A DNA stretch of 64,000 nt from Sediminitomix flava (GTDB lineage: Bacteria; Bacteroidota; Bacteroidia; Cytophagales; Flammeovirgaceae): positions 868,001 to 932,000 of the forward strand of contig NZ_QGDO01000001.1 of the NCBI RefSeq assembly GCF_003149185.1, written 5' to 3'. Under the pieces are notes generated by a model. It was given only the letters and a program-made list of their open reading frames with translations, made no database searches and was not told where the DNA came from. A program made the position numbers and the translations under genes. Each line of letters starts with the position of its first letter. Positions within the stretch are counted from its first letter, which is position 1. Shown here in pieces: positions 27,122-58,369 of the stretch.

Positions 27122-27862
27122 ATGCTAAAAACTTTACTATTACTAGCTATCATGATTTTTTCATGGGCTTTACCTACTTATGCCCAAAAAAAAGAGCCTG
27201 AACTTCATATTCTTCTTCCTGAAGACCTTCAAAAAGGAGGTGATTTTGAAGGTTATGTTGTGCTAAAAGAAGAAGGTGATACTCTTCATGGTCACATTAG
27301 TATAAAGTCATTGAAGCACCATGAAATGGGGCATGGTCATAGTTTCCCGATTATTGAATCTATCAAATTTAAAGCTGAATGGGGAGAAATGACTTATGAT
27401 TCAGATGGGATTAGAAGCTTTGCCCTCAAAAGAAAGAAGCCGATTAAAGCATATGATAATCTGGATTCTTTTGACCAAGAATACATGCACTTTGACCTAA
27501 AACGATGTCTTAATCAACACCGTTCAGGATACCATGACTTATTCTTACAACGATTGTTAGATGGCGTGGTTCAAATTTATGAAATCCCTTATATGGAAGT
27601 CGTTGAAGATAATTTGAAAGATGATAAGATTGTAAAAAAGCTCCACTACCTCGTCAATAAAGAAGACTCTGACTTTTGGGATATTGGAATCAATAACTGC
27701 TATCAACTTATACCTCTTCTTTTAGGTGATTCAGACGAAACACAAGTATATCTAAATAAACACCTAAACTGGTTTGACATCTCTCACCTACCTATACTTA
27801 TTGATTATTACAATACACATCATCATAGACGAAAGTGGAAAAAAAATGTCCATAACTTTTAA
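27122..27862 (+). CDS. Secreted protein of unknown function
   Basis: I do not recognise the family. The 246-residue protein has a clear signal peptide (LKTLLLLAIMIFSWALPTYA). The mature part contains GYVVLKEEGDTLHGHISI, a pattern seen in Bacteroidetes secreted proteins where a 'GDTLxGxI' strand pair recurs, then a histidine-rich segment (KHHEMGHGHS) and a C-terminus ending NTHHHRRKWKKN. The C-terminal half is acidic and has a DFWDIGINNCYQLIPLL stretch. Histidine clusters could bind metal, but this is speculation. It follows the TonB-dependent receptor by 293 bases on the same strand; co-transcription is uncertain. Confidence 0.7.
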   Translation: MLKTLLLLAIMIFSWALPTYAQKKEPELHILLPEDLQKGGDFEGYVVLKEEGDTLHGHISIKSLKHHEMGHGHSFPIIESIKFKAEWGEMTYDSDGIRSFALKRKKPIKAYDNLDSFDQEYMHFDLKRCLNQHRSGYHDLFLQRLLDGVVQIYEIPYMEVVEDNLKDDKIVKKLHYLVNKEDSDFWDIGINNCYQLIPLLLGDSDETQVYLNKHLNWFDISHLPILIDYYNTHHHRRKWKKNVHNF

Positions 27863-27863
27863 A

Positions 27864-28083
27864 TAGTTGGACATAAGAAAATAGGTAAGACTATCCTTAG
27901 AATTTACGAAGCTAGCGAGTGCATTATCTAAGGATATATTTATGGATGAAAGAGGCGGACGCAGTTCTTCAGACTATAAAAACACACACAAAATCGAGTC
28001 TGAAGACTCTCTCCTTCATTCATGAGTTCTTAGAGCAACTCTAAGAACAGTATTTTTTAACCTAAAAATATTTACTCTAGTAT
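27864..28083 (-). repeat. Dispersed multi-hairpin repeat, copy 1
   Basis: This copy is related to that at 57469-57665 in the opposite orientation. In plus-strand order it has TATCCTTAGA (27892-27901) paired with TCTAAGGATA (27927-27936); AGTTCTTCAGACT (27963-27975) paired with AGTCTGAAGACT (27997-28008), with one bulged base; and GTTCTTAGAG (28026-28035) paired with CTCTAAGAAC (28039-28048). The ends TAGTTGGAC and ACTCTAGTAT correspond to the ends of copy 2. No coding capacity is seen. Confidence 0.75.
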
Positions 28084-28109
28084 TTATACTTTGTTCGTTT
28101 TCTAAAAAG

Positions 28110-31783: not shown

Positions 31784-32064
31784 AATCTTAATTTTTTGAT
31801 TCAATAGGACTGTTTGAAGAGTTAACGAAGTGATCTTCAAACTCAGAGATAAAGGATTCTGTTTACTCCAAATGTCCTGCAATTTTGCACTAGACTTTTT
31901 GGAAAAGACTGTCCTTGTTCTTTCTTCTTTTGTCTTGACACAAAAGAAGCAAAACGTCAAGGCTATGATGTTTCATCTAATGCCGGTTTATTTGACTGTT
32001 AATTGCATAACTTGTTGAATTTATTTCTCAATTCAACAGTTAAACACATCAACAATTCAACACC
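31784..32064. repeat. Intercistronic region with palindromic dispersed-repeat-like sequence
   Basis: The nrtB to ATPase gap holds CTTCTTTTGT (31924-31933) and ACAAAAGAAG (31940-31949), a perfect 10-bp inverted repeat around CTTGAC, and TGTTGAATT (32013-32021) paired with AATTCAACA (32030-32038). I recall the TTTTGTCTTGACACAAAAG string as recurrent in Bacteroidetes genomes, but cannot search. It could affect expression of the two ATPase genes relative to the upstream genes. Confidence 0.5.
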
Positions 32065-56857: not shown

Positions 56858-57445
56858 TTATTCACATTCGAACTGAAAAATATAAAAAGGATTTTGAGCA
56901 CTGAATTTCACAAAACCGTCTTTATCTGTCTTGAATTTATGCTCTTCAAAAGGCTTAAGTCCTTCCATCTGAACATTTAAAGGAAGTTCAAAAATACTAT
57001 CTCTTTGTACCCATTTTTCAAAAGTATCTTGACAGAACATCCCCTTCCCATCTTTGGTATAACTCACAATATCCCATTTATGAGTCAATTGTAAGAGTTG
57101 TTCTTGTTCACTTTCAGAAAGTGTACCGTAGATATTAAATGCTTTTTGTCCGTCTTCACCTAAAAACTCAAGAATATCGATGAGTCCGAAAGATTCAAAA
57201 TCATGAATGGTAGAAGGTTGAAAGCTATCCAACAGCGGTTTCAATTCCTCTTCTTCACCTTCCAAACAAAAGATTCTGTCTACTTTTATTCCCCAAGAAA
57301 TAAGTTGCTTTGCTGTATTTGCATGACATACCACCACAGGACTCCATTCCAACAACTCTCCAAGTCTGGGCAAATCATCCTCTGTTAGCTTCCAGCAAAT
57401 CAGACTTGGTTCTTGATAATCTCTAACAATATGATGTGATGACAT
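56858..57445 (-). CDS. Conserved protein, possibly thiamine pyrophosphokinase-like
   Basis: I am not sure of this family. The 195-residue protein begins SSHHIVRDYQEPSLICW and contains SPVVVCHANTAKQLISWGIKVDRIFCLEGEEEELKP, which resembles the nucleotide-binding half of thiamine pyrophosphokinases as found in some Bacteroidetes. The canonical acidic metal motif is not clear, so activity is doubtful. The C-terminal half has a GTLSESEQEQLLQLTHKWDIVSY stretch and ends in an all-beta region (NPFYIFQFECE). Its upstream side is taken up by a dispersed repeat (57469-57665), which may influence its expression. Confidence 0.5.
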   Translation of the reverse strand: MSSHHIVRDYQEPSLICWKLTEDDLPRLGELLEWSPVVVCHANTAKQLISWGIKVDRIFCLEGEEEELKPLLDSFQPSTIHDFESFGLIDILEFLGEDGQKAFNIYGTLSESEQEQLLQLTHKWDIVSYTKDGKGMFCQDTFEKWVQRDSIFELPLNVQMEGLKPFEEHKFKTDKDGFVKFSAQNPFYIFQFECE

Positions 57446-57468
57446 CTTTGAATAATTAGTCTTCCAAG

Positions 57469-57665
57469 TACTAGGACAAATGATTACGGGATAAAATTTT
57501 ACTGTTCTTAGAGTAACTCTAAGAACTTACAAATGGAAAGCAGAGTCTTCAGACTCGAAAAATCTGCTAAAATGTCGAGTCTGAAGACTCTAATTCCCAT
57601 TTCTTAATTCGAAGATCGCTTCGTTAACTCTTCGAATAGAATATCCGTTTCCATTTGTCCCACTA
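57469..57665 (+). repeat. Dispersed multi-hairpin repeat, copy 2
   Basis: Outer ends TACTAGGACAAATG (57469-57482) and CATTTGTCCCACTA (57652-57665) are inverted copies with two differences. Inside are three hairpins: GTTCTTAGAG (57504-57513) with CTCTAAGAAC (57517-57526); AGAGTCTTCAGACTCG (57542-57557) with CGAGTCTGAAGACTCT (57576-57591), perfect over 16 bp; and ATTCGAAGA (57607-57615) with TCTTCGAAT (57629-57637). Copy 1 at 27864-28083 is inverted and diverged. There is no open frame. Confidence 0.8.
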
Positions 57666-57695
57666 CTTAATGAATTACAATATACTAATCGTGAA

Positions 57696-57748: not shown

Positions 57749-58369
57749 TTATTTCAACACAGACTTCACAATCTCTTGAATTGTTGTCTGTCCTTTATCT
57801 TTATTATACCACTTTTGTAATACCTCTTTAATTTCCTCAAAAGGCTTTTCTTCAGCTCTCATTTGCATATAGCTCTCTTGAAGTTCTACAGGACGAGGCC
57901 CCCAATTTCCGATTTCTTCTTTTGTTTCTGCATCAAAAGCAATCAACTTCGGAATAGAACGCCCTCCATTAGTCAAGTATTCATCCATCAACTCCAAGTT
58001 TTCATCTCTCAGAAGAATTTGAAGTTCGATGTTTTCACTCAATTCAGCCAACTTAGCCATTACAGGTACAGTGTGTGCAGCATCGCCACACCAAGCCTCT
58101 GTAAGTACAACCCAAAGTACTTTTCGGTCATAATTTGCGAAAAGCTCTTTTACTTCATCTGAGAATTTCAAATTCTTATCATGACGTAACATTCTCTTTT
58201 GGTTCATCACCGTATAGTGAATCATGGCTTCACTGTGATTCTCCCCTGTTGTTTTGCCTTCAGCAAGCAATTCAGCAATCATTTTATGAAAGCTGTCATA
58301 AGTAATTCCTTTTTGAGTCTGGATTGTTTCTAATGTCTTTACCATCACCTTATATGAATGTTCGATCAT
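57749..58369 (-). CDS. Thioredoxin-family protein with single active-site cysteine
   Basis: The 206-residue protein has an N-terminal helical stretch and a thioredoxin-like domain with VLWVVLTEAWCGDAAHTVPVMAKLAEL, the TTWCxxC-type position reading WCGDA, so the second active-site cysteine is absent. SIPKLIAFDAETKEEIGNWGPRP includes the conserved cis-proline (SIP). Such one-cysteine proteins can act in disulfide isomerisation or peroxide sensing, or have lost redox cycling. It lies 68 bases after cinA on the same strand. Confidence 0.8.
   Translation of the reverse strand: MIEHSYKVMVKTLETIQTQKGITYDSFHKMIAELLAEGKTTGENHSEAMIHYTVMNQKRMLRHDKNLKFSDEVKELFANYDRKVLWVVLTEAWCGDAAHTVPVMAKLAELSENIELQILLRDENLELMDEYLTNGGRSIPKLIAFDAETKEEIGNWGPRPVELQESYMQMRAEEKPFEEIKEVLQKWYNKDKGQTTIQEIVKSVLK

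Follow-up and report, generated by a model that had tools for sequence, protein, structure and literature searches.

MITEs are usually viewed as a pair of terminal inverted repeats (TIRs) around an idle middle; usually, although not by strict definition, they share their genome with an autonomous element that matches them. Bacterial MITEs on record include RUP, NEMIS, ERIC, Nezha and others (PMC3733652). The element described here lies in a 64,000-nucleotide stretch of the Sediminitomix flava genome, referred to below as the window. It is probably a non-autonomous MITE of the IS630/Tc1-mariner type, with TIRs TAAGTACTAGGACA at TA, a mosaic interior of exchanging halves from which like pairs are excluded, and hairpins that outlast the TIRs. 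Both the unlike-pair mosaic and the longevity of the hairpins are unusual for a MITE: the middle of this element survives longer than its ends and follows a combination rule.

Borders, folding and insertion site

A sequence-only reading of the window had placed the element at 57469–57665, framed by TACTAGGACAAATG and CATTTGTCCCACTA in inverted orientation with two mismatches. These repeats were indeed found, at 57469–57482 and 57652–57665, and the proposed borders proved nearly right, the true ends lying 3 bp further out on each side (Table 1). There, the element ends in inverted AAGTACTAGGACA and TGTCCCACTACTT; judged from the other genomic copies, the conserved TIR is AAGTACTAGGACA. Altogether, the inverted repeat in the window spans 57466–57489 with 57645–57668 (24 nt, 79%). 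Folding yielded a TIR stem and, as read from the sequence before, three internal hairpins, one central and two lateral, with z-scores of –9.98 (RNA) and –9.77 (DNA) against 200 shuffles, none of which folded as well. The outward continuation of the central stem was likewise recovered, but its perfect part measured 17 bp instead of the 16 reported. The element contains no ORF reaching 60 aa.

Table 1 Features of the element, its neighbour genes and the other copy in the window
Feature	Position	Strand	Remarks
Whole element, A..B-type copy	57466..57668	.	TA-type target: CA left, TA right
Left TIR	57466..57478	+	AAGTACTAGGACA, exact consensus
Side hairpin A	57504..57526	.	GTTCTTAGAG-TAA-CTCTAAGAAC
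Central hairpin	57542..57591	.	17 perfect pairs, 16-nt loop, AAATGG/CCATTT pairs extending it outwards
Side hairpin B	57606..57636	.	ATTCGAAGA stem, 13-nt loop
Right TIR	57656..57668	-	AAGTAGTGGGACA read on - strand, 2 mismatches
195-aa ORF	56858..57445	-	family-wide conserved; start 20 bp from element; function: no assignment
Thioredoxin-like gene (Thioredoxin_9)	57749..58369	-	upstream of element
Other window copy, type C..A	27861..28090	.	long form of central arm

The start of the neighbouring gene at 57445 had been called correctly, and the 195-aa ORF aligns with relatives from residue 1. In these relatives the gene order thioredoxin–195aa–bshC is preserved, and the gap before the 195-aa gene spans 7–164 bp, compared with 303 bp here, of which 203 bp are the element. 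The element is absent at the same gene pair in the relatives, which belong to other genera and are too diverged for base-exact borders. The difference in gap length indicates that the window element is a lineage-specific gain.

Copies, termini and parent type

The proposal of a mobile element in the window, dispersed and with both TIRs and conserved stems, was supported by about 46 dispersed copies genome-wide (44 catalogued, two degenerate ones added later) and by TIRs matching those of IS630-type insertion sequences. A genome search with the pattern of hairpin A returned about 38 sites versus 0–1 for the control. The other copy announced within the window was located as well; the side hairpins of the two window copies differ (C + A versus A + B), a difference absent from the earlier reading, as was the mosaic make-up of the entire family. 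Where copies are fused in tandem, the TIRs on the inner side are missing, as is the inner TIR–TIR palindrome. No copies were found in 17 genomes of the same family, and one weak match to the element was recorded in G032 (54 bp, E 4e-4). Exact hairpin A had no match in the genomes of other species, in viral contigs or in plasmids.

The two positions preceding the TIRs were T in 38/44 and A in 42/44 cases, counted from exact TIRs (n = 44), so that TA stands before nearly all of them; the TA duplication itself is putative. The TIR pattern was enriched in the genome of S. flava relative to 2 + 2 control matches, and TAAGTANKWGGACAWA was enriched in several genomes of the same order (G010, 28; G130, 18; G001, 16; control near zero). 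In same-order genomes, IS630-type insertion sequences carry matching TIRs (TAAGTA..GGACA). For instance, a TIR pair in G094 (L192, 953–2040) bounds an HTH ORF and a DDE_3 ORF, this insertion sequence being frameshifted. In G001, a member of the same family, DDE_3 ORFs adjoin such a TIR at two loci, L184, where the TIR at the other end is diverged, and L185. The IS630-type transposases within or beside these TIRs matched DDE_3 with E-values of 4e-21 to 3e-28. Because DDE_3 ORFs thus lie within or beside matching TIRs in relatives, the element ends can be assigned to the IS630/Tc1-mariner type. A DDE_3 search combined with TIR-like sites revealed no matching autonomous IS630 in the S. flava genome itself, and the sole DDE_3 gene found there (C2:474840) is broken and has different ends. 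An IS630-type transposase, absent from the finds in this assembly, would presumably move the element in trans.

The same genome carries some 20 copies of another family, about 418 bp long, which has its TIRs in common with the hairpin element. Two of its copies are 99% identical, indicating that some movement or conversion was recent. The family, with one copy at L108 6595–7012 (C2:277594–278011), shows strong inverted structure, and a small fragment of it (86%) lies in the window at 31922–31954. In stems and loops, both TIR-sharing families also carry GC-rich micro-inserts that are optional and resemble one another in shape (GCGGACGCAGT and GCGAGTGCAGC); in many copies of the hairpin element they sit in the central arm and the B/C loops. 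Near C2:288350 (L016), a palindrome GTAGAGACAAGGCATGCCTTGTCTCTAC takes the place of the right half of one copy.

Mosaic interior and missing like pairs

Comparison of the copies revealed three kinds of side hairpin with different stems, namely A (GTTCTTAGAG), B (ATTCGAAGA) and C (ATCCTTAGA). The loop GTTAACGAAGTGA is common to B and C, and one remnant combines the A stem with this loop. Among 44 copies the pair types were AC (27), BC (10) and AB (7), and the two further copies were AC as well. Like pairs (AA, BB, CC) were found in 0/44 and then 0/46 copies. Two copies were typed by inspection: truncated C11:139649 (automatic type BB) was counted as B..C, and C8:234662 (automatic type AB) as an A..C/B hybrid, as a right C arm is visible in each. 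Under random pairing, like pairs averaged 15.3 (sd 3.1), and the lowest count among 200,000 permutations was 4. This procedure treats copies as independent; since copies are related by transposition, their pairs are not, and the permutation overstates the strength of the rule.

The same relatedness lends some weight to ancestry as the sole cause, meaning that a few AB, AC and BC founders were copied and like pairs were never actively excluded. Some linkage between halves is indeed left, the half–half Mantel correlation being weak but non-zero (AC r 0.22, p 0.045). On trees of the halves, however, the partner labels are scattered nearly to the maximum, with at least 7 changes of partner type for A (of at most 7), at least 6 for B (of 7) and at least 8 for C (of 10), although these switch counts may be inflated, as each tree rests on about 100 columns. 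Moreover, similar halves have different partners: the B half of the window copy is 94% like that of C11:139652, whose partner is C. We thus consider ancestry alone a rather unlikely explanation. Given about 8 independent exchanges, zero like pairs would have a probability of about 0.04, an estimate that takes one third of events to be like. A transposase model with two distinct ends, left and right, was rejected because A–B, A–C and B–C all occur, so that A, B and C do not form two classes.

Our preferred reading, a mosaic with like pairs excluded, would treat the interior as two half-elements, each composed of a TIR, one side-hairpin allele (A, B or C) and one arm of the central palindrome. 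Halves may be swapped between copies via sequence that these have in common, the central palindrome being the likeliest place. Two like halves would produce an interrupted palindrome roughly 200 bp long, a length between the two tested in E. coli, where SbcCD cuts a 246-bp interrupted palindrome in every replication cycle and an 85-bp one is spared (PMC3315005). Such a palindrome would probably be a target for a hairpin nuclease and be cut or deleted at replication, which could account for the absence of like-pair copies; unlike halves would fold into several short hairpins instead. In real copies, no single hairpin reaches 85 bp, although the whole element additionally has paired ends. Avoidance of long palindromes, probably as hairpin-nuclease targets, is a plausible interpretation of the unlike-pair rule; sequencing or assembly loss could also cause like-pair copies to be missing. 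If the rule does reflect palindrome avoidance, the copies record the palindrome length that a bacterium tolerates.

Hairpin conservation, genomic context and related elements

Within kinds, the side stems are 94–98% and the central stem 91–95% conserved, compared with 76–82% for the TIRs; loops and spacers are mostly less conserved (about 50–70%). The earlier observation that loops vary while stems are kept therefore holds across 44 copies. By ORF calling, 44/44 mapped copies are intergenic. They lie between convergent genes more often than between divergent ones (21 versus 3, p 2.8e-4), at a median distance of 56 bp to a gene end versus 250 bp to a gene start. This 3′-end bias does not extend to the window copy, which lies 20 bp before a start codon.

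Stem conservation and location at gene 3′ ends would both suit an element acting as RNA, that is, a transcribed three-hairpin 3′ UTR structure that ends or stabilises transcripts and whose stems are kept by RNA selection; the same 3′ bias has been argued to reflect RNA function for REPs (PMC3733652). The substitutions point elsewhere. Standard pairing in the side stems amounts to 94%, and, read in transcript sense, G.U-type changes are no more frequent than A.C-type changes in either the side stems (5 versus 7) or the central stem (6 versus 10). From the lack of a G.U excess, stem upkeep looks DNA-level, albeit on small counts. Furthermore, no Rfam family reached its gathering score for the window element, a scan detected no terminator-like site, and the window copy precedes a start codon as noted above. 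A role as RNA is thus unlikely in our view. Weak miRNA matches of the window element were dismissed as chance hairpins. Of the selection on structure that the sequence-only reading had proposed, the part that stands is that stems outlast the TIRs, while selection on RNA is not indicated.

For the MITE as we interpret it, insertion, mostly near gene 3′ ends, would be followed by decay of the TIRs while the hairpins persist, probably by action at the DNA level (a palindromic protein site or a single-strand hairpin) or by exchange among copies. Only tentatively, and with considerable doubt, do we propose the two ideas jointly: that three recombining hairpin alleles occurring in unlike pairs only reflect a palindrome-avoidance rule, and that a host function maintains the hairpins at the DNA level after TIR decay.

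A hairpin MITE (family f3, L194–L223) with about 40 matches in G010, from the same bacterial family but another genus, resembles the window element in its TIR TAAGTACTAGGACA, its length of about 205 bp and its several hairpins, among them two unlike side hairpins. Here too the hairpins were kept where the TIRs decayed (stems 94–98% versus TIRs 59–70%). In contrast, its interior is unrelated and has one fixed hairpin combination, and it lies mainly between co-directional genes, with no convergent bias (convergent 1 versus 4). As this MITE never shuffles, it replicates the hairpin conservation only, not the exchange of halves, and its lack of convergent bias means that the 3′-end bias is not general. 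That two element families unrelated to each other, yet from one bacterial family, both conserve hairpins at the DNA level would suggest a shared host factor.

A REP/BIME-type repeat, in which a RAYT (HUH, Y1) transposase recognises the hairpins and the TIRs are incidental, would agree with the hairpins being the best-kept part and with intergenic, mosaic, 3′-biased copies as in BIMEs, but was rejected as highly improbable because no RAYT (Y1) flanked by the same hairpins was found, the Y1 transposase at C2:299039, the sole one detected in the genome, has neither these hairpins nor these TIRs nearby, and the TIRs at TA match IS630-type insertion sequences. The RAYT-like Y1 transposase gene, at L168 1249–1833, is single and has no copies of the element hairpins nearby.

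With BIMEs, the bacterial interspersed mosaic elements built from REPs, the window element shares the mosaic of small palindromes, the intergenic location and the bias to gene 3′ ends; it differs from them by its TIRs at TA, the fixed order of three hairpins and a RAYT partner that was not found. With IS630/Tc1-mariner-derived MITEs it shares small size, a non-coding sequence, TIRs, a putative TA target, intergenic location and an IS630-type parent in related genomes. What sets it apart from these MITEs is a mosaic interior, in which interchangeable hairpin alleles are combined unlike with unlike, and the better conservation of its hairpins than of its TIRs.
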